64,000 nucleotides of DNA from Devosia sp. 2618 (lineage in GTDB: Bacteria; Pseudomonadota; Alphaproteobacteria; Rhizobiales; Devosiaceae): contig NZ_JBEPOO010000001.1 of NCBI RefSeq assembly GCF_040546815.1, positions 1,116,001-1,180,000 on the forward strand, in the 5' to 3' direction. Below the pieces are notes generated by a model. It was not told where the DNA came from and searched no databases. It was given only the letters and a program-made list of their open reading frames with translations. Shown here one piece after another: positions 5,084 to 53,098 of this stretch (position 1 is the stretch's first letter; the number at the start of each line of letters is the position of its first letter). Made by a program: the position numbers and the translations under genes.

Positions 5084-6042
5084 GCAGGACGGCTGTGATC
5101 TTCGGCGGTTGCGGATTCTTCGGCACGCATATGGCGCGGGCGCTGTCGGCTGATCCTGAAGTTGGAAGGATCGTCTTGGCGGATATTCAGCCGCCGCGCG
5201 AGCTGGCGGCGAAGGCTGATTATGTGATCTGCGATGTGCGCCAGCCGATTACCTTCCCCACGCAAGGGCCGGTGGAGATTTACAATTTTGCGGCGGTGCA
5301 TACGTCGCCGGGGCCTGCGGATTGGGAGTATTTTTGGACCAATGTGGCCGGGGCGACAAATGTGTGCCGGTTCGCGGAAGCGATTGGGGCGCGGCGGATC
5401 GTCTTCACCAGTTCGGTTGGCGTTTATGGGCCGCAGGAGTGTCTGGTCGACGAGCGGACCACGCCGCGGCCGGTTACGGCCTATGGCAAGTCCAAGCTGC
5501 TGGCCGAACAGATCCATGAGGATTGGCAGGCGCGATCAGGTGATCGGCGGCTGCTGATCGTGCGGCCAGCGGTGACATTTGGCGAGGGTGAGCGGGGCAA
5601 TTTTGAACGGCTGGCGAGCGTGCTGCGCGAGCGGCGGTTCGTTTATCCAGCACGCAAGGACACTGTGAAGGCCTGTGCGCCGGTGGAGGAACTGGCGCGG
5701 AGCATTGCCTTCATGGCGCAGTTCGACGAGCCAGTATTGCGCTATATTTTTGCCTATCCGGACCGCACGACCACCGAGGCGATCAATCGAGGGTTCGGCG
5801 AGGCTGCGGGCTATGCCATGCCGAGGCTGGTGCTGCCTGAAAAGCTGATCATGGTCGCGGCGTTTGGCTTTGAAGTGCTGGGCAAGGTGGGAGTGCGGAC
5901 AGCGATCAACCGGGAGCGTGTACGCAAGCTGATACGATCCACCAATGCCTATCCGCATGAGTTGATCTCGCGGGGTTTTGCCTTTGAAATCGGGCTGGCC
6001 GAGGCCTTGCGGCGCTGGCAGCAGAGCAGCGATTTCCGATGA
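5080..6042 (+). CDS. NAD(P)-dependent sugar epimerase/dehydratase
   Basis: This 320-residue extended SDR protein has an N-terminal GGCGFFG Rossmann motif. It carries TSSVGVYG followed by a Tyr-x3-Lys pair in AYGKSKLLAEQ near residue 147, and RPAVTFGEGERGNF after it. The start is a GTG overlapping the preceding stop (GTGA), and the stop overlaps the next ATG, so the gene sits inside a tightly coupled four-gene unit. It should convert a nucleotide-activated sugar in the cytoplasm for glycan synthesis. The precise reaction (4-epimerase, dehydratase or reductase) cannot be assigned from sequence alone. Confidence 0.8.
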   Translation: MSRTAVIFGGCGFFGTHMARALSADPEVGRIVLADIQPPRELAAKADYVICDVRQPITFPTQGPVEIYNFAAVHTSPGPADWEYFWTNVAGATNVCRFAEAIGARRIVFTSSVGVYGPQECLVDERTTPRPVTAYGKSKLLAEQIHEDWQARSGDRRLLIVRPAVTFGEGERGNFERLASVLRERRFVYPARKDTVKACAPVEELARSIAFMAQFDEPVLRYIFAYPDRTTTEAINRGFGEAAGYAMPRLVLPEKLIMVAAFGFEVLGKVGVRTAINRERVRKLIRSTNAYPHELISRGFAFEIGLAEALRRWQQSSDFR

Positions 6043-7247
6043 GCAAGATGATCCTGCACGACTATGGCGGGCATCCGTTTACCGGCCAGTTGGCGCGCGC
6101 CCTGGCGGCGCGGGGCAATGCAATGGTCTATGCGTGGTTCGCTGGCTTTTCCGGGCCGAAGGGGCGGATGGGCGGTGTCGAGCACGCTGGATTTCGGGCG
6201 GTGCCACTGGATATTGGTGGGCCGTTCGACAAGGACAATCTTGTCAGGCGCGGGCTGCAGCAGCGGGAATATGCCCGCGTTGTCGCCGCTTTGGTGCTGC
6301 AGGAGCGGCCCGACGAGGTGCTGTCAGCCAATGCGCCGATCGAGGTTCAGGAGGCGTTGCAGCGGGCCTGCGCACGCGTCGGCGCGCGGTTCGTTTTTTG
6401 GCTGCAGGATATTCATAGCGAGGCGATTGGCCGGATTATCGGCAAGAAAAACGATGGCCTAGGGAAGCTGGCGGGCACCTATTTTCGCGCGCGTGAGCGT
6501 CGGGTTTTGCAGGCGAGCGACGCAGTTATCGCAATAGCGGATGCGTTCCTCGATGTGCTGGGTGGCGAGCCCTGGCGGATGGATACGGCAGGAATGGAGG
6601 TCATCGAAAACTGGGCGCCGCTTGAGGATATTCCGCTGTTACCGCGAGACAATGACTGGGCGCAGGCAAACCTGCGGCCAGCGCAAAAGCGGATCGTTTA
6701 CACGGGGACATTGGCGCGAAAGCACAATCCGGATTTGTTGCTGTATCTGGCGCGCAATCTGGAGGCAGATGTGTACCTGTTCTCGGAAGGCAGCAGCGCG
6801 GATCATGTGAGTGCGGTGGCAGCGAGCGAAGGGCTCGACAATATGATTGTGCGGCCTTGGGTCGACGTGGACGATCTGCCGAGCGTTCTGGCTTCCGCCG
6901 ATATTTTGTACGCGGTTATTGAGGAGGACGCCGGCGTATTCTCGGTACCGTCCAAGGTGCTGTCCTATCTGGCGGCGGGGCGGGCGATATTGGGATCCAT
7001 TCCTACAAACAATCTCGCCGCCCAAACCATCTGCCGCGCCGAGGCGGGCAGGGTAGTGGCACCGGATGACGTCGACGGCCTGTTGCGTGACGCGCGGGCG
7101 TTGCTCGGCGATGACGCCGCGCGCGCCGAGATGGCCAGCAACGCGCGCGCCTATGCCGAGCGGACATTCCACATTGCCAACATCGCGGGGCGCTTTGAAG
7201 ACGTTCTCAACGAGCGGGTGGGGCAAACAAAACTGGCCGCCGAATGA
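6039..7247 (+). CDS. Family 4 glycosyltransferase (WbuB-like)
   Basis: This 402-residue GT-B protein belongs to the group that transfers a sugar from a nucleotide donor to a lipid-linked glycan. The N-terminal domain starts with HDYGGHPFTGQLARAL, and FWLQDIHSEA lies near residue 122. The C-terminal donor domain has YTGTLARKHNPDLLLYLA and ends with the VPSKVLSYLAAGRAIL motif that usually binds the nucleotide. It overlaps both neighbours by four bases. It probably acts at the cytoplasmic membrane face in exopolysaccharide or O-antigen assembly. The sugar is unknown. Confidence 0.85.
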   Translation: MSKMILHDYGGHPFTGQLARALAARGNAMVYAWFAGFSGPKGRMGGVEHAGFRAVPLDIGGPFDKDNLVRRGLQQREYARVVAALVLQERPDEVLSANAPIEVQEALQRACARVGARFVFWLQDIHSEAIGRIIGKKNDGLGKLAGTYFRARERRVLQASDAVIAIADAFLDVLGGEPWRMDTAGMEVIENWAPLEDIPLLPRDNDWAQANLRPAQKRIVYTGTLARKHNPDLLLYLARNLEADVYLFSEGSSADHVSAVAASEGLDNMIVRPWVDVDDLPSVLASADILYAVIEEDAGVFSVPSKVLSYLAAGRAILGSIPTNNLAAQTICRAEAGRVVAPDDVDGLLRDARALLGDDAARAEMASNARAYAERTFHIANIAGRFEDVLNERVGQTKLAAE

Positions 7248-9221: not shown

Positions 9222-9636
9222 TACGCTTCCCTTCAGGAGAAATGATCACGTCGCCGTCTTCCTTGGTGAAGGGGCCGATGTTTGGGTTTTCGAGAAGATC
9301 GAGCACCGCTTCGGAAGGTCGGGAGAGGCGGACGCCTTTGGCGGTGACGACGAAGGGGCGGTTGATGAGGATGGGGTGGGCCAGCATCGCGTCGAGCAAT
9401 TGGCTGTCGCTCAAATCCGGGTTGCATAGCGAGAGTTCGTCATAGGGCGTGCCTTTTTGGCGGATTGCGGCGCGAACCGACAGACCGGCCTCGGCGATCA
9501 GCCAGACAAGCTTTTCGCGGGTTGGTGGATTGGTCAGGTAGTCGATGATTTCAGGCTCGACGCCGCTTTGGCGGATCATGGCGAGCGTGTTGCGAGACGT
9601 GCCGCATTCGGGATTGTGGTAGATTGTGACGGACAT
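9214..9636 (-). CDS. arsC: Arsenate reductase, glutaredoxin-dependent
   Basis: This 140-residue protein of the ArsC/Spx thioredoxin-like family has the active-site Cys in [10 protein letters not shown] near residue 11. Downstream Arg residues, including INRPFVV and RLSRPSE, correspond to those that bind arsenate. Its length is typical of the glutaredoxin-linked enzyme. It reduces arsenate to arsenite in the cytoplasm. It lies three bases from arsR and overlaps arsH. Confidence 0.95.
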
Positions 9637-9639
9637 GGA

Positions 9640-10023
9640 TCAGGCCAACTGTTTTGCGTCAGGTGCGCATTTTGGATCGCAGGGCGAGGCGGCGGACAGG
9701 ATGTCGGCGACGGTGGCGCTGACGCCCGGATTGCCCTGGCAGCAGTCCTGCACGAGAAACAGCACGAGATTTTGCATGGCGCTGAGGTCGGCGGTGTAGA
9801 TGATCGAGCGTCCGTCACGGCGTGAAGTGATCAGGCCGGACCGCTCCAGGATCGCCAGATGGGTGGACATGGTGTTGGACGGCGTGCCGATGATGCGGGA
9901 GATTTCGCCGGCAGGGAGGCCTTCTGGTCCCTCGGTGACGAGGGCGCGGAAGGTGGCCAGGCGGGTTTCCTGCGCCAAAGCCGACAGCATGGCGAGATGG
10001 GGCAGTGAAACGAGATTGGCCAT
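9640..10023 (-). CDS. arsR: ArsR-family metalloregulator
   Basis: This winged-helix repressor of about 127 residues has a DNA-recognition region PSNTMSTHLAILERSGLI and the wing RRDGRSIIYTA. Candidate arsenite ligands are the vicinal Cys pair in QDCCQG and the C-terminal SPCDPKCAP. I place the start at ATG 10023 because GGAG lies seven bases upstream. An in-frame ATG at 10035 has no good ribosome site. It heads arsR-arsC-arsH and would release the promoter when arsenite or antimonite binds. A palindrome just upstream is the likely operator. Confidence 0.9.
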   Translation of the reverse strand: MANLVSLPHLAMLSALAQETRLATFRALVTEGPEGLPAGEISRIIGTPSNTMSTHLAILERSGLITSRRDGRSIIYTADLSAMQNLVLFLVQDCCQGNPGVSATVADILSAASPCDPKCAPDAKQLA

Positions 10024-40646: not shown

Positions 40647-41612
40647 TCAGCGCGTTGCGGCCTGCAGTTCTGGGAGTAGCACTTCGAGCGCCCATGCCGT
40701 GCTGAGTGGTGATGGATAGCCAACGGCAGAAGCGACGGTTGGCGGCACCACGGCATAGTGGCCGTTCTGGACAGACTGCAGGCGCTTGAAAAGCGGATCG
40801 GCTTCGAGGTCGGCCTGGCTGATCTGGGAGACGCCCTCAAAGGGGAAGCCGAACAGCAGCACGTCGGCATCGAACAGATCTAGGCGTTCGCGGCTGACGG
40901 CAGAGATATCGGCTGAGAACTGTGCTGCCGTGTCGGGCAAAGTGAAGCCGAGCAGTTTGAAGAAGGTGGTCGAGGTATCGCCTTCGACGGACATGTACGT
41001 CAGCTGGTCGGGATGGACGACGCCATAGGTGATGGTCTTGCCGGCAAAGCTGGGGTTTTCAGCGGCGGCAGTGGCGAATTTCGCCTCAATGTCGGCAATG
41101 ACCTGTTCGCCCTTAGTTTCGAGGGCGAGGGCCTTGGCGGCGGTGCGGGTTTTGTCCTGCCATGTCGGGTTTTCATCGCTGGCGGGCAGAGCGACAACCG
41201 GTGCGATGGTGGAGAGGCGCTCATAGTCGGTGTCGAGCGACCACGCGCCCGTGGCGAGGATCAGATCTGGGTCAAGGCCCAGAATTGTCTCGAACGGCAC
41301 GCCTGACATCAGCGAGAAGAACGCGACAGGTTCGCCATGCCAGTTGGCCATGTAGCTCTGGTGGTAGGTGGAGGTCGTTTCACCATCAAAGCCGGCATTG
41401 GCGGATGCGACCGGTTCGAGACCGAGGGCCAGAGCGATGTCGAAGTCGATATCGCTCAGCGCGACGATGCGCTTGGGCATCGCGGCGATTTCGGTGGTGC
41501 CATAGGCATTGTCGAGCGTGCGCGGAAAGTCTTGTGCAAAGGCCGCGGCGGGAATGGCGCAAGAGAGCAGGAGGGCGGCCAGCACGGCACGGAGGTTTGG
41601 TGCGATAGTCAT
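40647..41612 (-). CDS. Iron-siderophore-type ABC transporter substrate-binding protein
   Basis: This 321-residue protein starts at ATG 41612 (GAAGGA upstream) with a Sec signal ending AAAFAQ. It has the class III binding-protein fold used for siderophores, haem and cobalamin: KRIVALSDIDFDIALALGLEPV near the N-terminus, GLDPDLILATG, then a long helix, and DADVLLFGFPF in the second lobe. No permease or ATPase gene follows, so it must use a transporter encoded elsewhere. It lies 17 bases after the siderophore-interacting fusion, suggesting a two-gene iron operon. The ligand is inferred. Confidence 0.85.
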   Translation of the reverse strand: MTIAPNLRAVLAALLLSCAIPAAAFAQDFPRTLDNAYGTTEIAAMPKRIVALSDIDFDIALALGLEPVASANAGFDGETTSTYHQSYMANWHGEPVAFFSLMSGVPFETILGLDPDLILATGAWSLDTDYERLSTIAPVVALPASDENPTWQDKTRTAAKALALETKGEQVIADIEAKFATAAAENPSFAGKTITYGVVHPDQLTYMSVEGDTSTTFFKLLGFTLPDTAAQFSADISAVSRERLDLFDADVLLFGFPFEGVSQISQADLEADPLFKRLQSVQNGHYAVVPPTVASAVGYPSPLSTAWALEVLLPELQAATR

Positions 41613-41629
41613 GTTTGATCCTTCACAAG

Positions 41630-43389
41630 CTAGGCGACGGCAAATTCGAAGAGGACGTGGCCGTCCGGCAGGCTGAGGCGGCGCACCTGCGCCAGCCCGG
41701 CGCGGCTGGCCAGCGGCGCGATGGCATCGTGGTCGCGGAGCTCTCCGAACGAGAGCTGTAGAAACAGCAGCCACTGGGCGCTTTCGGGGATGCCGTATTC
41801 CAGCACGAAGAGGCGGCTATCGGCCGTCATGGCGGCGGCGACGTTAGCCAACTGGGTGACAACTGCTTCGTCATCGAGCCGATAGAGCAGGCCGCCGATC
41901 AGGTAGATATCGGCGCCCTTTGGCAGCGCCGCGTCGTGCGGTTGGCCGAGGACGGTGATGCGGTCGGACTTGCCAGATGCTGTGGCGAATTCGATTGCGC
42001 TGTCGCTGATACTGGGAGGTCGACCAGCGTACCGGTCGCCTGAGTATGGCGCTCGAGGATTTCGTTGAGGAACACGCCCTCGCCACCGCGCACGTCGACG
42101 ATGTGCGCATTGGGCGGTAAGGCGACCTGCTTGGCGGCGTCCTCGGCGGCGTCTTCGAGGTTGTGGCCGTGTTCATCGGCATAGTTGGAGGCGAAGCGGT
42201 CTGACGCAGCGTCCTTGGCATAGCTTTGGCCGTGTGTGGCGGCATAAGCGTTCGTGCCCTTTAGGGTAGCAACGAGGCCAAACCACGCCAGGTCCATGCG
42301 ACCGGGCGCGGAATTGTAGTCAAGATGCGCTCGGGCGTGGTCGTCTTCGAGGAGGATCAGGCCGAGTGGTGCTAGGGACAGCGCCTCAGGCGTACCCGCC
42401 AGCACGGCCTTCTCTATCAGGATCGGGATGAGCGGCCGCAGATAGGTCAGCTCGACGTCGGCGGCCGCTGCGAGGGCTTCGATAGTAGTCGCGCCGTTGG
42501 CGATGTGCTTGGCAAGATCATAGGTCGCGGCGGCCCGCAGGGCGAAGGGGCCTGCGAGATCGGCCAGCGCGTCGAAGGCGTCATAGGTTTTGGCCACAAC
42601 GGTGTCATCGACGCCGTGGTGCCAATAGGCGGACACGGCGACTTGTGACTTGGTGAGGCTGCGTTCGTCGATCAGGTGGGCGCGGAGACGGCGGATGGCT
42701 TCGCGTTCGCCGGCACCCCAGACATAGCCGTGGCCATCCGGCAGGGTGAGGTTGGCGACGGTGTCGCGCAGGGTCTGCGGCTGAGCTGGATGGTGCAGGA
42801 GCCAATGGATCGCGGCATTAGCCGGCGCCTGCAGCGGGATCTGCGCCGAGGTGTCTTCGTGCAAAATAACGGTGATGACCTTGGCGTCACTTGGCAGCAT
42901 TTCGAGCCAGTTGCCGATGGCGGGCAGGGCGGTTTCATCGCCGACGATCAGATACCAGTCGGCACTCGGGATGATGAAGGAGGATTTGGGTCCGGCGAAG
43001 TGGAGGGTGTCGCCGATTTTGGCGGAGGCGGCCCAGTTGCCGGCAATGCCGTGGCCATGCAGCACAAACTCAAAATCGCAGGTGCCGGAGGACGGATCAA
43101 AGCTTCGCGGGGTGTATTCGCGCGACGTCGGGCGCGGATCGTTGGGCCAGTTGAGGTGGCCGTCTGCCTGCGTTGGCAATGTGAGAACGCCGGTGTCGGG
43201 TGCGGGGAAGAACATTTTGACGTGGTCGTCTGGGCCCTCGCTAGCGAAGGGCGGGATGGCATAGCCGCTGGATTTGAAGCTCCCCATCTGGGCACCACCG
43301 AAGGTGATGCGGCGCAGACGCGGCGAGACATCATGGATGGCGACGACCTCGAGTTCGCGCAGGGAAATCGGGAAACGCTTATTGGCCAT
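41630..43389 (-). pseudogene. Siderophore-interacting protein fused to a methyltransferase domain, frameshifted
   Basis: The first frame (from ATG 43389) encodes a SIP-type ferric-siderophore reductase. An FAD-binding segment (SREYTPRSFDP) and GPKSSFIIP precede the NAD(P)H part (WYLIVGDETALPAIGNWLE, and YVWGAGEREAIRRLR), to about residue 260. A plant-type O-methyltransferase-like region follows (dimerisation helix about 275-340, SAM motif HIVDVRGGEGVFL near 430). The frame is lost after ATGTLVDLP and continues correctly in another (SISDSAIEF onward, then ADIYLIGGLLYRL) to the stop at 41630. One missing C at about 42015, in a CCC run, explains it, and the 1760-base span fits a single deletion. 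The fusion is unusual in itself. Confidence 0.7.
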
Positions 43390-43565: not shown

Positions 43566-44825
43566 TTATTCGTAGGACTTGGTGGCGGTGAAGCTGAGCT
43601 TGTAGGCGCCGATGGTGTTGGCTGCGATCGCGGTGGTGGCTTCGAAATTGCCGCCTGGAGCCCAAGTGAGTTCGAGCAGGCCGTCGGTGATCGACTGGGT
43701 GCCGCTTGGGGCATTGGCGCCGGTCCAGAGATGGCCGGCTTCAGCCGCAAGAGTCAGCGCTTCGGTGGCCTTGTATTCTACGCGAGCGCGGATTTCTGCG
43801 CCTTCGTCGTCATTGACGGTGGTGTCTGCATCAAGATAGCGGGCCGCCAGCTTGACGGTGAAGCTGTCATTGAGCTTGGCTGAGGCGGAGGCCACGAGAC
43901 CGAGTTCGCGCTCGGAGGTGCCGTCAATTGTTGCGGCAAGCGTGAACATGTCGATGGTGGTTTCGGCGCTGGCGAGAGCATTCCACCAGCCGTCATTGGT
44001 CGCGGCAAAGGCGCCGCGCAGCTTAAAGGCGTCGAAGATGGCGGTAACGCCGGTGTGGATAGCCAGATCGTCCAGCGAGCCATCGAGCACGCCGCCAGCC
44101 AGCACGGAAATGTGGGCGGTGAGCGTGTCGCTGCCGTAGTTCAGAACGCCGATCAGCGATCCGTCTTCGTCGAGATTTTCCAGCGCGATGCCGGTGGTGA
44201 AGCCGCCGCCGAGGTTGTGGGTCAGCTGAATGACGTGACCTTCGGTGCCGTACTTGCCCTTGCCACCATCGAAAGCGACACCGCCGGTTTCGTAGGAGAT
44301 GAAGCTGTCGAGCCAGCCGAAGGCGTCATCATCGTCCGAGTTGAACACGGACGTGCCACGAATACCAGCGGTCAGAACGGTCTGGTCGCCGACCGAGAAA
44401 TAGGCCTCGTCGACGGAGAACTCGCCGCTTGGGTCTGGGACAAGGTTTTGGACTTCGTTGTACTCGTAACCATAGAGCACGATGGTGGCCTTGGCGGGAC
44501 CGAAATCGGTGGACGAGGTGCCAACGGCAGTCAGGTAGACATCGAGCCAGCTGTCCCAATCGTTGGCGTTGCCGTCAGGTGCGTTCCAATCGATGGATGT
44601 GCTGTAGCTGGATCCCAGTACTGGACGGTCGCCCTTGTAGTCGCCCCAACGGAATTCATAAGTAAGCTCTGCAGAAACCTGCAAGCAGTTGGATGACGAG
44701 GACAGAGTGAGGCCGGAAACGCCAAGCGTGTCACACAGATCGAGCGATTTCAGCACGCCGAGGTCGGCCGCGAATGTCGGTGATACGAGGGTTGCCGAAG
44801 CCAGCAGGAAAGTCGCAAGTCTCAT
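43566..44825 (-). CDS. Alphaproteobacterial porin-like outer-membrane protein
   Basis: This 419-residue protein has a Sec signal (cleavage after FAAD region, residue 20) and alternating beta-strand patterns over its whole length. There are many aromatic girdle residues, Asp/Gly-rich turns, and one pair of cysteines near residues 31 and 47. The strand pattern matches trimeric general porins of this class. The last residues are TKSYE instead of the usual terminal Phe or Trp, which is atypical for barrel assembly. It is a single-gene unit with an inverted repeat upstream. The substrate is unknown. Its position beside iron and B12/cobalt uptake genes is suggestive only. Confidence 0.75.
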   Translation of the reverse strand: MRLATFLLASATLVSPTFAADLGVLKSLDLCDTLGVSGLTLSSSSNCLQVSAELTYEFRWGDYKGDRPVLGSSYSTSIDWNAPDGNANDWDSWLDVYLTAVGTSSTDFGPAKATIVLYGYEYNEVQNLVPDPSGEFSVDEAYFSVGDQTVLTAGIRGTSVFNSDDDDAFGWLDSFISYETGGVAFDGGKGKYGTEGHVIQLTHNLGGGFTTGIALENLDEDGSLIGVLNYGSDTLTAHISVLAGGVLDGSLDDLAIHTGVTAIFDAFKLRGAFAATNDGWWNALASAETTIDMFTLAATIDGTSERELGLVASASAKLNDSFTVKLAARYLDADTTVNDDEGAEIRARVEYKATEALTLAAEAGHLWTGANAPSGTQSITDGLLELTWAPGGNFEATTAIAANTIGAYKLSFTATKSYE

Positions 44826-45011: not shown

Positions 45012-46463
45012 TCAGGGCGTGGCTTGGGCGATGATGCCGTCGCGCATGTCGATGACGCGATGGGCGAATCCGTTGAGCAACGGGCGATCATGACTGACCA
45101 TGACGATGATCGTTCCCGTAGCGGCGACCGAGTCGAGCAGGTCGAGGATTTGCGCCGTGGCCAATGTGTCGAGCGCGCTGGTGGGTTCGTCGGCGACGAT
45201 CATGACGGGTTTGCCGATGCTGGCGCGGGCAATCGAGACGCGCTGGCACTGGCCGGTGGAGAGTTCGCTGGGCAGGCAATCGATATCGGTGTGACCAAGA
45301 CCGACGCGGGCAAAAATCTCGCGAGCGCGGTCGCGCAGAGTGGCGCGGGACAGGCCGGGCAGGTGCCGCGCGGTCAGGGGCTCGGTGACCGACCGCCATA
45401 CCGGCCAGCGCGCGTTGAGGCTGGCCACCGGGTCCTGGAAGATCGGCATGATCGAGCCTGGGAAGGTGAGGCTATCGTGCCGGACGATAGTGCCGGCGGT
45501 TGGCCGCTCTATGCCGCCGAGCAGGCGCAGTAGGGTCGATTTTCCGCAGCCGGAGGGACCGCTGATGCCGACGATTTCGCCGGGGTGCAGTTCGAGATTG
45601 GCATTGCGGACGGCGTGGGTGTCAGCGGTCTTGCGGCTATAGCTGCGGCCGACCTGATGCAGACGCATCAACGGTGCGGCGTCGATGGTCGCGCGCTGGC
45701 GCTTGTGGCTCAGGGTGTCGGCGGCGGCGACGAAGTCGCGGGTGTAGCCGTGCTTGGGCGACGTGGCGATTTCATCGGCCGTGCCGATCTCGATGATCTC
45801 GCCATTGCGGCAGACGGCGATTCGGTCGGCATGGCGCAGGACGAGCGGCAGATCGTGGCTGATCAGAAGGACGGCGGAACCGCTGGTCTTGAGGGCGGCG
45901 ATGGTGGCGTCGGCGCGCTCGGCATCGAGGGCGCTGGTTGGTTCGTCGGCGACGACAAGCGGTGGGTTGTGGGCGCGCGCCGCAACGATAGAGGCGCGCT
46001 GCAACATGCCGCCGCTCCAGCTGTGTGGATAGTCCCAGACGGCAGTACTAGCATTGGCGATGCCGACGGCGTCGAGGCGTTCAAGCGCGACATCCTCTGG
46101 GCTGGTGAGGCCGTGGACCTGCCAGGCATCGACGACGTGATCGTGCACCGGGCGGAGTGGATCGCAGGCCTGATAGGGGTCTTGGGCGACATAGCCGATC
46201 TCGCGGCCACGAAGGGCGCGGAAGCCGGATTCGTCCAATGCGGTCAGATCTGCGCCTGAGATCTGTAACTTGCCGGTTACCGTTGCGCCGGGTGGCAGTA
46301 TGCCAAGGATGGCGCGGGCAATGGTGGTTTTGCCGGAGCCAGATTGGCCGACAAGGGCAACACATTCGCCGGGGGCGATGGAGAAACTGGCATTGGTTAC
46401 GGCGAGGTGGCCGTCGGGGTAGCGGATGGTCAGATCCTGGCAGTGGAGCAGAGGGGCGGTCAT
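45012..46463 (-). CDS. Dual-domain ABC transporter ATP-binding protein (peptide/nickel type)
   Basis: This 483-residue protein contains two complete ATPase domains. The first has Walker A GQSGSGKTTIARAI, signature WSGGMLQRASIV and LVVADEPTSALDA. The second has GPSGCGKSTLLRLL, signature LSTGQCQRVSIARA and MIVADEPTSALDT. It thus replaces the separate DppD and DppF-type subunits. I use ATG 46463, whose ATGA overlaps the permease stop. The longer upstream frame is a shadow of the permease. It powers the transporter of the B12-riboswitch operon and is its last gene. Confidence 0.93.
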   Translation of the reverse strand: MTAPLLHCQDLTIRYPDGHLAVTNASFSIAPGECVALVGQSGSGKTTIARAILGILPPGATVTGKLQISGADLTALDESGFRALRGREIGYVAQDPYQACDPLRPVHDHVVDAWQVHGLTSPEDVALERLDAVGIANASTAVWDYPHSWSGGMLQRASIVAARAHNPPLVVADEPTSALDAERADATIAALKTSGSAVLLISHDLPLVLRHADRIAVCRNGEIIEIGTADEIATSPKHGYTRDFVAAADTLSHKRQRATIDAAPLMRLHQVGRSYSRKTADTHAVRNANLELHPGEIVGISGPSGCGKSTLLRLLGGIERPTAGTIVRHDSLTFPGSIMPIFQDPVASLNARWPVWRSVTEPLTARHLPGLSRATLRDRAREIFARVGLGHTDIDCLPSELSTGQCQRVSIARASIGKPVMIVADEPTSALDTLATAQILDLLDSVAATGTIIVMVSHDRPLLNGFAHRVIDMRDGIIAQATP

Positions 46464-47356
46464 GTGCGGCCTCGCGGTTCGAGGACGTCGCGCAGGCCAT
46501 TGCCGGCGAGATTGGCAGCGAGCACGGAGACAAAGATCAGCCCGGCAGGCACCAGCAGGAGCCAGGGCGCAATGGGGAAATAGAAGCGGGATTCGGCCAG
46601 CATGGCGCCCCACTCGGCATAGGGTTGTTGCACGCCAAGGCCCAGGAATGAGAAGCCGGAAATGGCTGAGATCATGCCGCCAAGGCCGAGCGTGGCGACG
46701 ACGGCGAGTTGCAGCGCGACGCCCGGAAGCACGTGGCGGAACAGAATGCGGGCTTCGCCAATGCCGGCCATGCGAGCAGCGATCACATCGGGGCGCTGGC
46801 GGGCGGAGAGGGTGTAGGAGCGGGCGAGGCGGGCATAATAGGCCCAATCGGCGACGATCAGCGCAATCAGCAGGTTTATGAAGCCCGGACCCAGAATGCC
46901 GATGATGGCAAAGGCCAGCACGAGGCCGGGCAGGGTCATCATGACGTCGACGAGGCGCATCAGGACGGTATCGACCCAGCCGCCAGCCATTCCGGCTATG
47001 GTCCCGATTATGATCCCGATGGTGAAAATGGTGCCGAGCACCATGACCGCCGCGCCGATGGAGCGATGGGCGCCGTCGAGCAGGCGGGATAGCACATCGC
47101 GGCCGGTCGGGTCGGTGCCCAGCCAATGGGTTGCGCTCGGCGCCTGCAGGGCGACCGCATAGTCGGGCCAGTTAGGTTCATAGGGCGAAATGAACGGGCC
47201 AAGGGCGGCGAGCACCAGCAGGATCACCCCGAGCAGCATTCCGATGGCGAAGCCGCGATGGGCCAGCAGGCGCGGCCAGAGTTGGCGCTGGGTGGATGGC
47301 GTGAATCTGGGCGATGTGGGCCGGGCGACGCTGGCGAAGCGGGTGAGGGCGTTCAT
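46460..47356 (-). CDS. ABC transporter permease (DppC/NikC type)
   Basis: This 298-residue inner-membrane protein has a cytoplasmic N-terminus, a first helix at about 37-58, then HWLGTDPTGRDVLSRLL, the hallmark loop of the second peptide/nickel permease. Five or so further helices follow. The EAA-like loop is RMAGIGEARILFRHVLPG. The start overlaps the upstream permease stop by four bases. It pairs with the permease at 47353-48300. Confidence 0.93.
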   Translation of the reverse strand: MNALTRFASVARPTSPRFTPSTQRQLWPRLLAHRGFAIGMLLGVILLVLAALGPFISPYEPNWPDYAVALQAPSATHWLGTDPTGRDVLSRLLDGAHRSIGAAVMVLGTIFTIGIIIGTIAGMAGGWVDTVLMRLVDVMMTLPGLVLAFAIIGILGPGFINLLIALIVADWAYYARLARSYTLSARQRPDVIAARMAGIGEARILFRHVLPGVALQLAVVATLGLGGMISAISGFSFLGLGVQQPYAEWGAMLAESRFYFPIAPWLLLVPAGLIFVSVLAANLAGNGLRDVLEPRGRT

Positions 47357-48300
47357 CGTGCGCTCCGCAGACGGGGATCGAGCAGCATGGCCACCACATC
47401 GACGAGGAAGCTGGCGGCCACATAGGCAAGACCGCTGAGCAGGACAAAGCCCTGAATGACGGGGAAGTCGCGGGCAGAGAGCGCCTGCAACAAGTAACGG
47501 CCAAGGCCGGGCCAGGTGAAGATTTCTTCGATGATCGGCGCGCCGCCGATCAGCGCGCCGATGCTGACGCCGACGGCGGTGAGGAACGGCAAGAGGCCAT
47601 TGGGCAGCCCATGGCGCGACAGGACAAACCAACGGCTCGCGCCACGGGCGCGGGCAACCTGCGCGAAGTTTGAGTTCATGGCCTGAAGCAGGCTGGCGCG
47701 CAGAAGCTGGGTCCAGCCAGCGGCCCGGTCGACCCCAATGGTCAGGGCCGGCAGGAGGACCAGGGCAAAAGTGCCGCTGGACAGCACGCGGCCAACGCCG
47801 GCGCCGACCACGACATATTGCAACACCAGTAGGGCGAAGACGAAGGTGGGCAGGGCGGAGCCAATCTGCGTGTAGAGCAATATGACGCGGTCAGGCCATC
47901 GTCCCCGCCAGGCCACAGAAATCAACGCCAGGATCAGCGCGAGAATGACGGAAGTGGCGAGGGCGGTGCCTAACAGCATCAGCGTGGCGGGCAAGCGTTG
48001 GCCGATCTCTTCGAGCACGGGTTTGCCGGTGCGATAGGACACCGACAGATCGCCCTGCACGACGCGCCCGAGCCACTGCACGTATTGCAGCGGCAGCGGC
48101 TCATCGAGCGCCAGTTCGGCCCGCAGATTGGCAATCTGCAGGTCATTGGGCTCGTGAATGAAGCGCGCCTCAAGTATCCGCATCACCGGGTCGCCCGGCG
48201 ATAGCGGCAGGAGCGCCCAGACGATAACCGTGGCAGCCAGCGCCGTCAGGACGGCCTGTGCAAGTCGTTTGAGGATCAGGACTGCCACGGAGTTTTTCAT
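47353..48300 (-). CDS. ABC transporter permease (DppB/NikB type)
   Basis: This 315-residue permease has the typical first helix (LILKRLAQAVLTALAATVIVWALL), then LSPGDPVMRILE and YVQWLGRVVQGDLSVSYRTGKPV. Later helices and the loop ARARGASRWFVLSRHGLPNGLLPFL (EAA motif) follow. Its start directly abuts the stop of the binding-protein gene. It is the first membrane subunit of the B12-riboswitch operon. Confidence 0.93.
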   Translation of the reverse strand: MKNSVAVLILKRLAQAVLTALAATVIVWALLPLSPGDPVMRILEARFIHEPNDLQIANLRAELALDEPLPLQYVQWLGRVVQGDLSVSYRTGKPVLEEIGQRLPATLMLLGTALATSVILALILALISVAWRGRWPDRVILLYTQIGSALPTFVFALLVLQYVVVGAGVGRVLSSGTFALVLLPALTIGVDRAAGWTQLLRASLLQAMNSNFAQVARARGASRWFVLSRHGLPNGLLPFLTAVGVSIGALIGGAPIIEEIFTWPGLGRYLLQALSARDFPVIQGFVLLSGLAYVAASFLVDVVAMLLDPRLRSAR

Positions 48301-49838
48301 TACTGCGCCGGCGACGGGGCTGTGGTCGGCGAGACGTGGTAGAGCGCGAAGCCGGGTTCGTAGCCGGCATAGGTCTCGTTCACGACGACGCGGCCCTTGT
48401 GGATGTTGAAGGCAAACACATAGGGGTCTTCGCTCACCAGAATGTCCTGGATGCGGCCAAGGATTTCGTCGCGACGAGTGGTGTCGACTGTGACCTTGAG
48501 TTCAGCGATCAGGGCGTGGACTTCCGGGTTGGCGTAGCTGGCAAAGTTGCGGTTGCCGGCGGGGCCAAGATAGCGCGTCAGGAATGGCGAGGTGACGCCC
48601 CAGCTGACGGTGCCTTCGCTGGAAATGCCAAGATCCCAATCGACGCCGCCTTTGCCCAGTGCTGCATAAACGTCATCGACCGACTGGATTTTGACCCCAA
48701 TACCGAGCTTGCGAACCTGGGCCTGCAACGCGCCGCTAAGCGGCACGAGGTCTGGTTGCTGCGGATATATGACGACCTTGAGCTCAAGCGCTTCGCCGTC
48801 CTTGCGGCGCATGTCGCCATCGAGGAGCCAACCGGCTTCGTCGAGCAGGGCGGCCGCAGCCGTCGGATCGGTGACATAGGTCTGGCGAGCCCAGGGGAAG
48901 CTTTCATTGTAGAGGCCCTTGGCCTCAGCCAGGGCGCCGCCGAACACGACATTGGCGATCTCGTCATAGTCGATGGTCTGCATCAGTGCCTGACGCACGC
49001 GAACGTCGTCGAATGGTGGCTGGTTGACGTTCATGAAGCCTAGGAAGCCGCCGGTTCCGGTGGTGCCGGTATTGAAATGAATGCCGGGGGTGGCATCAAC
49101 CACGGGGCGCGCCGCGATAGGGGGATAGAGCGCGATATCGGCTTCATCGTTCTGGACGGCCAGAATGCGGGCGTTCGGATCGGTGACGAAGCTGACGGAG
49201 AGGCCGGGCAGGGCTGGTTCGCCGTTCCAGTAGCTATCGTTGCGCTCCGCATCGAGGCGGGCGGAGGTCAGACTGGTGACGGTGTAGGGGCCGGTATAAA
49301 TGCCGGCATTGGTCAGCTTGGTCCAGTCGTCGCCAACGGCGTCGGCGGCCTCGGCGTCATAGATCAGGAAGATAGCTTCGTTGGACAGAATGCCGGGCAG
49401 TTCCGGCCATGGCGCGACCGTCGAAATGGTAATTTCCATGTTACCGGTTTTGACGAAGGTTGTGCCTTCGGGAACGGCACCTGTGGCGGAGTCCGATACG
49501 GCCATCTGGCGCTTGATGACGGCGAGAACGGCGTCGGCATCGAGCACCTTGCCATTCTGGAAAGTGATCCCATCGCGCACGGTAGCGACCCAGGTCAGCG
49601 CGTCCTTGTTTTCCAGGCTTTCCAGCAGCCAAGGCTGGTTGGTGCCGTCGGGATAAAACTTCATCAGCAGTTCGGCAACGCCAAATTCCTGCATCCAGAA
49701 GCCATCGACGGCCGGGTTCATCGTGCCGATGTCAAACGAGGTGACGATGCGTAACGGCGCTGGATCAGACTGCGCGGTGGCAGCCGAGACCGCTAAGGCG
49801 CTGGCCAGCAGGGCGAGTGTGAGACGCTTGAAAATCAT
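48300..49838 (-). CDS. Extracellular solute-binding protein family 5 (peptide/nickel type)
   Basis: This 512-residue periplasmic protein has a Sec signal (residues 1-22, ending ATAQ). Family 5 landmarks are present: the N-terminal strand RIVTSFDIGTMNPA, then TFQNGKVLDADAVLAVIKRQ, and FDDVRVRQALMQTIDYDEIAN. Relatives bind oligopeptides, nickel chelates, haem or metallophores. I use ATG 49838, which overlaps the preceding CbiX-like gene. Under a cobalamin riboswitch, a cobalt chelate or a corrinoid precursor is a likely ligand, which is inference. Confidence 0.92.
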   Translation of the reverse strand: MIFKRLTLALLASALAVSAATAQSDPAPLRIVTSFDIGTMNPAVDGFWMQEFGVAELLMKFYPDGTNQPWLLESLENKDALTWVATVRDGITFQNGKVLDADAVLAVIKRQMAVSDSATGAVPEGTTFVKTGNMEITISTVAPWPELPGILSNEAIFLIYDAEAADAVGDDWTKLTNAGIYTGPYTVTSLTSARLDAERNDSYWNGEPALPGLSVSFVTDPNARILAVQNDEADIALYPPIAARPVVDATPGIHFNTGTTGTGGFLGFMNVNQPPFDDVRVRQALMQTIDYDEIANVVFGGALAEAKGLYNESFPWARQTYVTDPTAAAALLDEAGWLLDGDMRRKDGEALELKVVIYPQQPDLVPLSGALQAQVRKLGIGVKIQSVDDVYAALGKGGVDWDLGISSEGTVSWGVTSPFLTRYLGPAGNRNFASYANPEVHALIAELKVTVDTTRRDEILGRIQDILVSEDPYVFAFNIHKGRVVVNETYAGYEPGFALYHVSPTTAPSPAQ

Positions 49839-50593
49839 GAATTGTCCTTGGTGGAAAGGGCAGGTTGGCGTGCGGCCTTGGCCGTATGAATGAGGAGGTC
49901 GTGGGCGGTCTGGCCCTGGACCAGAACTTCCGAAACGAAGCGGGCGAGGGCTGTTTTGTCGGCCAGGCGATACCATTCGCCCTTGGGATAAAGGGCGACC
50001 ATCGGGCCTTGATTGCAGGGGAACAGGCAGCCGGTGCGGGCGGTGAGGCATTGAGAGGCAATGCCCTGTCTGTTGGTCTCGTCCTTGAGGGCATGCAGGA
50101 GCGAGGCAGCGTCGCGGTAGTGGCAGCGCGGGCCGGTGCAGACCAGCAGGTGGTGTCGAAAATCGGGTGGGTTCTGCCAGCCAGGTTTGCCCAGCGATGG
50201 TTTTGCCTTGGCGACGGGCGTGGCGTTGTCGGCGTTTTCAAGCGCCGTCGTCACGAAATGACTGAGCAGTGCCGGGTCATCGCTGGCTTCGCTGCCAACG
50301 GACAAGGTGACATCGTCGTTGCCGGGCAGAAGGCTCCAAGTGGCGAGCGCGCCAGGGAGCCAGGCGATCAGGCTTTCGGGGAAAGGCAGGCCAATCGGCT
50401 GGACGAGAATGGACGTATGCCCCTCATCGCGCAGGGCGTCGAGGGCCTGCGGCAGGTTCTGGTCGGTGCCTTCGAGGCGAACGAGACGGCTGGGCAGGGC
50501 GGTGGCTGCGGCAAGTCCGTTCGCCACCGTCGCAAAACGGCGAGCACTCAGATTGGCCAGCGAGATGACAAAGAGAATGGCGTCAGGCTGCAT
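49835..50593 (-). CDS. CbiX-like/[2Fe-2S] ferredoxin-domain protein of the B12-controlled operon
   Basis: This 252-residue protein has two parts. Residues 1-120 resemble a CbiX/sirohydrochlorin chelatase half (RFATVANGLAAAT, QALDALRDEGHTSILVQPIGLPF, DDPALLSHFV), but the usual HGSR chelatase motif is replaced by SLANLSAR, so metal insertion is doubtful. Residues 147-235 form a thioredoxin-like [2Fe-2S] domain with four Cys at about 152, 157, 189 and 193 (VCTGPRC and GCLFPC, then NQGPMVALYP). I choose ATG 50593 because GGGGCG lies six bases upstream. It is first gene after the riboswitch and overlaps the binding-protein gene by four bases. It may reduce or handle cobalt or a tetrapyrrole. Confidence 0.8.
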   Translation of the reverse strand: MQPDAILFVISLANLSARRFATVANGLAAATALPSRLVRLEGTDQNLPQALDALRDEGHTSILVQPIGLPFPESLIAWLPGALATWSLLPGNDDVTLSVGSEASDDPALLSHFVTTALENADNATPVAKAKPSLGKPGWQNPPDFRHHLLVCTGPRCHYRDAASLLHALKDETNRQGIASQCLTARTGCLFPCNQGPMVALYPKGEWYRLADKTALARFVSEVLVQGQTAHDLLIHTAKAARQPALSTKDNS

Positions 50594-50829
50594 GACACGC
50601 CCCAATGCAGGACGCATGATCATGTGGATACGCCATTGGGTGGTGCCCAATGTTCATAATCAAAACTCCGCTCAAGCCGGTTAGGATCGGCTTTGGCGGG
50701 CGGGGTGTGCGCGCGCCGATAACCCCGTTGTCGGAACGGACAGGTTAGGCGCAAATGGCAGATAGGATGCTGGCGTGGCCGCAGTCATGACGTGTCCCCT
50801 GCCAGAACACCTCGTCTGGCTGCTTGGTA

Positions 50830-50987
50830 TTGTGCTTGGGCAGGTCTCCTGGCTCACGGCTCTGATGCGGTTGCAGCCTTCCCAATCCTAAAAGGACCAG
50901 TGGCGATAGCAATCGCTTGCCGCTTACAGTTGCGAGGGCAGCCTCGGTTTTGGCCCCTGATGGGTAATCCGCACCGTGTTCCCTTTT
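50830..50987 (-). ncRNA. Cobalamin riboswitch
   Basis: Read on the reverse strand, the leader has the conserved cobalamin-element blocks in order: GGTGCGGATT near the 5' end, GCCCTCGCAACTGTAAGCGG, GCCACTGG, GGGAAGGC, and the B12 box GAGCCGTGAGCCAGGAGACC with TGCC following (50839-50853 for the core). About 236 bases separate it from the first gene. High adenosylcobalamin should switch off the five-gene operon downstream. Boundaries are approximate. Confidence 0.93.
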
Positions 50988-51152
50988 AATCCGCGCGTCA
51001 TGGCGGAACCGAAAGCTCGCGCAAGTTGGGGTGATTCTGGATGGGGATCAAGGCGCAGGTGTCGGCGTTGTGTCGCGGGGGCGCGTTGCGCCAACACTCT
51101 TGCTGCGTTTGCTGGTAAGACAGTGGCTAAGCTGGAGTTGGTGGCAGAAAAC

Positions 51153-52404: not shown

Positions 52405-52995
52405 CTACAGCCAGCCGGCCAGCACACCGATGCCGCCAATGGCAAATACACCGCCGGCGAACTGGGCAGCGTATTTACCGTACTTGCCGATAAGGCGCGC
52501 GATTGCCGCTGTGCTGGCAATGCCTGAGAGATGGAGCAGGGCGGTTGCAACCGCGAAGCCGGCCGCGTAGGTCAGCCCGCTTGCGTCTGTCGGCATTTCA
52601 GCGCCATGGGCGTGTCCGTGGAACACTGCAAACAGGCCAACAAGCGTCATCGCGGCGGCAACAGGCATCGCCCGTCCAAGGGCGGCGGCGGCGCCGATCA
52701 CTACGCTTGAGAGGGCAATGCCAAGTTCGACATAGGGGAGGTCGACCTGGGTCACGCCCAGCGCGAAGCCGGCGACCATCATGGTCACAAAGCTCAGCGG
52801 CACCAGCCACAGGGCGCGGCCACCCAGCACGAAGGCGAAAACGCCGCCAGCGACCATTGCCAGGACGTGATCGATTCCGCCGATGGGGTGTTCAAAGCCG
52901 TGAAAAAAACCGGCTGTGTCGCCGACGCCAGTGTGGGCGAAGCTGATTGTGGGGAAGAGGACCAGAATGGCCAAGGCCAGAAAAAGACGCATCAT
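52405..52995 (-). CDS. HupE/UreJ-family nickel/cobalt permease
   Basis: This 196-residue protein has a signal peptide (MMRLFLALAILVLFPTISFAHTG) and about six membrane helices. The family metal motif is HPIGGIDHVLAMVAGG (His-x3-Gly-x-Asp-His), with a second His-rich loop, FHGHAHGAE. I start at 52995, with GGAAGGA upstream, because the longer frame hides the signal peptide. HupE proteins import Ni2+ or Co2+. With no hydrogenase or urease in view and a B12-controlled operon about 2 kb away, cobalt is possible, but no riboswitch is seen for this gene. Confidence 0.88.
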   Translation of the reverse strand: MMRLFLALAILVLFPTISFAHTGVGDTAGFFHGFEHPIGGIDHVLAMVAGGVFAFVLGGRALWLVPLSFVTMMVAGFALGVTQVDLPYVELGIALSSVVIGAAAALGRAMPVAAAMTLVGLFAVFHGHAHGAEMPTDASGLTYAAGFAVATALLHLSGIASTAAIARLIGKYGKYAAQFAGGVFAIGGIGVLAGWL

Positions 52996-53098
52996 TATCC
53001 TTCCGGGGTCTTGTGCCCCTGAGTGATCGCAATCGGCGCCCGCCGGAACTTCCATATACTCGCATGCCATTTAATGGCTGCGCGCGGCGTGGTTGTAA

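Follow-up and report, generated by a model that had tools for sequence, protein, structure and literature searches.

The 64,000-nucleotide stretch analyzed here (the window; contig NZ_JBEPOO010000001.1 of Devosia sp. 2618, assembly GCF_040546815.1, positions 1,116,001 to 1,180,000 of the forward strand) contains a cobalamin riboswitch and, behind it in the same direction, five genes. The first encodes a two-domain protein, here called fdx, and the other four encode the parts of an ATP-binding cassette (ABC) importer of the peptide/nickel family. We asked how often this arrangement recurs, which of its parts are constant and what it might carry.

A riboswitch and five co-directional genes

An initial annotation of this DNA had recognized the blocks of a B12 riboswitch upstream of five co-directional genes with start/stop overlaps. 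Both observations hold. The Rfam model is matched over its entire length (positions 1-189 of 189) and far above its gathering cut-off of 31.5 bits, and the genes are joined by four overlapping junctions. The functions then read from the translations (a CbiX-like/ferredoxin protein, a family 5 binding protein, two permeases and a two-domain ATPase) agree with our family scans. The features are:

50822-51029, minus strand: cobalamin riboswitch aptamer RF00174, full length (cmscan, 112.3 bits, E 2.4e-27)
49835-50593, minus strand: gene 1 (fdx), N-terminal CbiX/CfbA-fold domain and C-terminal thioredoxin-like [2Fe-2S] ferredoxin domain (Pfam/NCBIfam, AlphaFold2, fold matches, alignment)
48300-49838, minus strand: family 5 solute-binding protein, NikA-like; start overlapping the gene 1 stop
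47353-48300, minus strand: ABC permease, NikB/Opp2B-like (PF00528; NF045470 282.6 bits, cut-off 350)
46460-47356, minus strand: ABC permease, NikC/Opp2C-like (PF00528; NikC model NF007738 270.8 bits, cut-off 335)
45012-46463, minus strand: ABC ATPase with two nucleotide-binding domains in a single chain, NikD-like and then NikE-like (ATG at 46463; two ABC_tran stretches)

The riboswitch is the sole one of its kind in the window, and it is predicted to repress the operon upon binding adenosylcobalamin. A scan of the leader for promoters and terminators gave nothing convincing: the single promoter-like site is on the opposite strand, and of two terminator-like sites (0.8 expected) one is on the correct strand but within gene 1. 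The stretch after the aptamer folds only slightly better than shuffled sequences (z -1.87; 7 of 200 shuffles were equally good). Elsewhere in the same 4.26 Mb genome are three further B12 riboswitches, which precede genes that read as class Ia ribonucleotide reductase, metE, and cbtA-cobW with cobN downstream; CbtA was named by family match and the others by reading translations. Two B12 riboswitches of this genome are divergent, with some 115 bases between them (L011, where loci are numbered with the prefix L; 5653-5807 on the minus strand, 5922-6109 on the plus strand); one precedes a class Ia ribonucleotide reductase-like gene and the other a metE-like gene.

The product of fdx, for which alternative starts exist at 50623 and 50650, is modeled by AlphaFold2 with a predicted local distance difference test (pLDDT) score of 88.5, and a structure search matches the CbiX fold in its N-terminal domain. 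Both the fold and five invariant cysteines (162, 167, 192, 199 and 203, numbered from the ATG at 50623; 26 relatives aligned) identify the C-terminal domain as a thioredoxin-like [2Fe-2S] ferredoxin. The N-terminal domain has the fold of the class II chelatases CbiX, CfbA and SirB but, unlike them, lacks the catalytic histidine pair and is joined to the added ferredoxin domain. No column of this domain is histidine in all 26 relatives; the best reaches 19 of 26, at a position where the window protein has threonine. HGSR is retained, in contrast, in a CbiX protein from a haloarchaeon that also carries a related ferredoxin domain at its C-terminus. A search of 5.8 billion proteins returned 255 relatives of fdx at E 1e-5, the nearest named ones from Devosia, and within this genus the gene is patchy (3 of 37 genomes, including that of the window).

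The transporter belongs to the SBP_bac_5 and BPD_transp_1 families, and its parts are not of the BtuF/FecB and BtuCD types. NikA is the best family model of the binding protein, at scores below the curated cut-offs (110.6 against 393 bits and 260 against 600). All other parts also fall short of theirs (NikB 247/447, NikC 266/358, NikD 279/319, NikE 259/333 bits), including the two halves of the ATPase, matched by TIGR02770 (nikD) at residues 22-247 and by nikE models at 273-480. The top five Foldseek entries for the binding protein are all nickel-binding proteins, while VIA-align intersperses other family 5 proteins among them. E. coli NikA aligns with only part of the binding protein, and mapping its metal-chelate ligands (Arg97, Arg137, Tyr402 and His416) gave no certain counterparts. 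Dpp and Opp transporters are in the same superfamily, family 5 proteins are hard to separate by sequence, and the permeases score with glutathione and oligopeptide models at values not much below their Nik scores, all of which would suit an ordinary peptide importer that lies behind a B12 riboswitch by chance. The binding proteins, however, match NikA best and peptide/glutathione models far less well (260 versus at most 86 bits, and 256 versus at most 81 in a second lineage described below), and the five-gene unit and its riboswitch are kept together in unrelated surroundings. We regard a peptide importer as highly improbable.

Recurrence of the operon and exchange of its transporter

To look for the arrangement in other genomes, as the initial annotation had proposed, we assembled 93 fdx loci: the best 80 of 90 from 84,980 species genomes, two Devosia loci (one of which repeats a locus of the species-genome set), one weak order-level match and ten plasmid loci. 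Duplicates were kept (L009/L020, the same locus; L047/L055 and L082/L085, the same genome; L096/L097, the same species). Neighboring genes were typed by BLAST against the transporter of the window (Nik-type) and that of Devosia pacifica (Btu-type). Before counting, L024, L026 and L033 were reassigned by hand from both types to Btu because their Nik-like genes are on the other strand and the binding protein is only about 25% identical; L100 was reassigned from both to Nik. The result is 23 loci with a Nik/Opp-type transporter, 61 with a BtuFCD/FecBCD-type transporter, one with both (L063) and eight with neither nearby.

Riboswitches were located with our own model, R1, which was trained on 11 riboswitches and run over 94 sources including the window. 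Its training set included the window, recovered at 152.7 bits, and eight of the loci, and Rfam independently finds a riboswitch in all nine. By a distance rule, a riboswitch precedes 20 of the 23 Nik-type loci. Riboswitches were assigned by hand to L029 and L100, where the reading frame had been begun too far upstream, and to L097, which the rule had already given. The three Nik-type loci without one are L054, whose contig begins inside the gene, L071 from Chloroflexi, and L015 from Devosia equisanguinis, which has the same set of five genes; upstream of them (9500-9960) no riboswitch was found even at a relaxed threshold. The same rule places a riboswitch before 38 of the 61 Btu-type loci. 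Among these 38 are all 27 Btu-type loci within L009-L055 (L020 repeats L009, and L055 is from the same genome as L047). In six others (L061, L065, L077, L079, L089, L098) the locus contains a match that the rule does not cover, and 17 have none. Actinobacterial matches are weak, at 24-69 bits by R1 scores alone. An evenly drawn sample of 340 Alphaproteobacteria, with up to seven candidates scored per genome, contains six genomes with a two-domain fdx, three of them from one genus. One of the six is that of the window; the riboswitch is directly before fdx in one other, farther upstream on the same strand in three and missing in one.

The surroundings of the operon are not conserved. Among 96 open reading frames (ORFs) flanking 14 Nik-type loci, some of them antisense, no family accounts for more than two, and a TonB receptor is absent from the 25 commonest of the 82 flank families (the other 57 occur once each). 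The observation made in the window is real and well beyond chance, and its operon is not an isolated oddity but one version of a recurrent, modular unit predicted to be under B12 control. On a Shinella plasmid (L100), three B12 riboswitch matches fall within 14.7 kb, before metE, nrdHIE and an fdx-NikA-like operon.

Both types of transporter are found behind fdx within Devosia itself: the Nik type in the window genome, D. equisanguinis and a Devosia metagenome-assembled genome, and the Btu type in D. pacifica, D. chinhatensis, D. limi and D. geojensis. The riboswitch-fdx-BtuFCD-type operons of D. pacifica, D. chinhatensis, Pelagibacterium, Ruegeria and others have the same riboswitch and the same first gene in the same place, whereas the BtuFCD/FecBCD-type transporter is unrelated to that of the window. 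We mapped the two labels on a tree of fdx with 89 rows, built by a quick method and containing some long branches. The tree omits the duplicate or partial L013, L020, L042, L054, L055, L059, L072 and L094 and adds the window and L139-L141. The label changes at least five times, with five changes forced by starred branches, compared with a mean of 20 for shuffled labels. A distant Nik-type version is found in Rhizobiaceae and Paracoccus. Its binding protein is only 27-31% identical to that of the window (28-31% for the Rhizobiaceae version) and yet matches NikA best in both examples scanned, which suggests that this kind of protein was recruited independently. In five loci of this second fdx-NikA-like lineage (L096, L097, L099, L100, L103) a binding protein and two permeases are present, and no ATPase gene was recognized directly behind them. 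The riboswitch and fdx look like the constant front of the operon, and the ABC importer behind them like its exchangeable part.

Cobalt as the predicted cargo

We consider it probable that the operon serves B12-repressible acquisition of cobalt. The route by which cobalt reaches the aerobic chelatase CobNST from the medium is understood only in part; according to the title of a paper cited in PMC7689651, CobW acquires Co(II) for making B12. Under a shortage of coenzyme B12, the riboswitch would permit expression of the operon. The NikA-like binding protein would capture Co(II), probably as a small chelate, and the two permeases and the fused ATPase would import it at the expense of ATP. The fdx protein would then accept the metal, or reductively free cobalt from its chelate, and hand it on towards a CobN-type cobaltochelatase. 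The reductive step is a guess suggested by the ferredoxin domain and by the inertness of Co(III) chelates. Cobalt is the likeliest cargo because the binding protein is NikA-like, because nearly all hosts tested make the corrin ring, because fdx is repeatedly found in the company of CobN, and because importers of the BtuFCD-like class, which includes the cobalt importer CbtJKL, also occupy the same slot.

The host data come from 42 genomes tested for CobH and CobN (the window, L009, L010 and L014-L055 minus L020 and L042, a set with Chloroflexi, Actinobacteria and plasmid hosts outside it). CobH/CbiC, an enzyme of corrin-ring synthesis, is present in 39 of the 42, and CobN in 40, in 38 of them above cut-off. 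Two of the three genomes without CobH have CobN above cut-off; the third is Salipiger mucosus, in which several weak cob-methyltransferase-like matches lie within 5 kb of the start of one contig. Because these matches are at a contig end, the miss is likely an assembly gap, and we dropped the idea that S. mucosus is an auxotroph. In the sample of 340 Alphaproteobacteria, CbiC is found in all six fdx genomes compared with 134 of 340 overall. CbtA, the one other cobalt carrier tested, is missing above cut-off from 31 of the 42 genomes.

In 15 of 98 fdx loci (the 93 and five more) a CobN-family gene lies at a distance of 0.3-4.5 kb from fdx. Ten of the 15 are actinobacterial and at least 78% identical, including L075, the source of the query itself. 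This locus, from Micromonospora okii, has a riboswitch (34.9 bits, R1), fdx and CobN in that order, with no Nik- or Btu-type importer nearby. On an Azospirillum brasilense plasmid (L098), genes for cobN-like, ExbB-like, BtuF-like and BtuC-like proteins, fdx, a TonB-dependent receptor and nikR lie within 10 kb.

The CobH/CbiC and CobN data favor a metal over a finished corrinoid, without proving it. Import of a corrinoid or a precursor such as cobinamide or incomplete corrinoids, with fdx binding it through the CbiX fold and reducing its cobalt for adenosylation, would be equally consistent with a B12 riboswitch. The CbiX/CfbA fold binds tetrapyrroles in the solved structures 6m2e and 8i57, and the Devosia Btu-type ATPase has 'corrinoid ABC transporter ATPase' as its best match (270/537 bits). 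The cognate binding protein, however, matches BtuF weakly (63/234 bits) and a putative F420-0 family best (185/392). In two separate lineages the binding protein behind fdx is NikA-like, and we know of no family 5 binding protein for corrinoids. Hosts that make the ring, far more frequent here than in the class sample, and an fdx gene that adjoins the cobalt-inserting CobN, once with no importer of either type, also speak against a corrinoid cargo, which we think unlikely. Of the two cargoes suggested by the initial annotation, a cobalt chelate or a corrinoid precursor, the first is supported as a prediction and the second is the less likely.

Alternatively, the transporter could carry nickel or a broad range of metal chelates, tied to B12 demand by the riboswitch, with cobalt as one of several cargoes. 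The entry titles of the solved relatives 4oeu and 4xkr describe nickel bound with histidine, either alone or plus a second ligand, and the A. brasilense fdx cluster is near nikR. Against this, that cluster has a riboswitch match as well, the riboswitch accompanies both the Nik-type loci and the other transporter type, and the 25 commonest flank families include none of nickel enzymes. This explanation appears quite improbable.

With cobalt as the cargo, fdx may, tentatively, be dedicated to accepting cobalt or to reducing Co(III) chelates, work with any of several unrelated ABC importers and pass the metal to CobN, the transporter having been replaced at least five times and NikA-like importers drawn from at least two distant lineages. 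As a conserved companion of redox type, kept while importers change and found also beside CobN, fdx is a concrete candidate for an unrecognized step of cobalt delivery. It would also help to tell cobalt-specific members apart within the large peptide/nickel transporter family.

Related systems and neighboring genes

Riboswitch control of a Nik-type importer has a precedent: in two Clostridia, a B12 riboswitch has been predicted to precede homologues of NikABCDE (PMC2667541). These have in common with the window a NikA-like binding protein, two permeases and NikD- and NikE-like domains. The window operon differs in that all its parts are under the curated cut-offs, the NikD- and NikE-like domains are fused, fdx stands in front and the host is alphaproteobacterial; the portions of the NikABCDE accounts available to us mention no fdx. 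CbtJKL of Sinorhizobium meliloti is likewise an ABC importer behind a cobalamin riboswitch and is required for growth at trace cobalt, but CbtJ is BtuF-like rather than NikA-like (PMC7689651, PMC12239276). None of the 38 plasmid records that carry an fdx relative is from Sinorhizobium; BtuF-like matches occur in 1314 plasmid records, among which Sinorhizobium CbtJ was not singled out. In a survey of riboswitch regulons, the tally for cobalt transport is 12 orthologues, and the words 'nickel' and 'ferredoxin' are absent from its main text (PMC3766115). Nik-type importers behind a riboswitch had thus been predicted and a riboswitch-controlled cobalt ABC importer was known, whereas no description of fdx or of the exchange of transporters was found in the literature we searched, which covers older riboswitch work incompletely.

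Other genes on the minus strand of the window border the operon. A HupE/UreJ family gene (a Ni/Co permease family, E 1.9e-50) at 52405-53070, about 1.4 kb upstream of the riboswitch, is without a riboswitch of its own. An ORF of 419 residues at 43566-44825 reads as a porin and has no Pfam or NCBIfam match. At 41899-43389 is a siderophore-interacting protein (SIP) with an O-methyltransferase-like tail whose end is seemingly out of frame; the gene may be broken, or the sequence may contain an error. The ORF adjoining the SIP gene, at 40647-41774, reads as an iron-siderophore binding protein.

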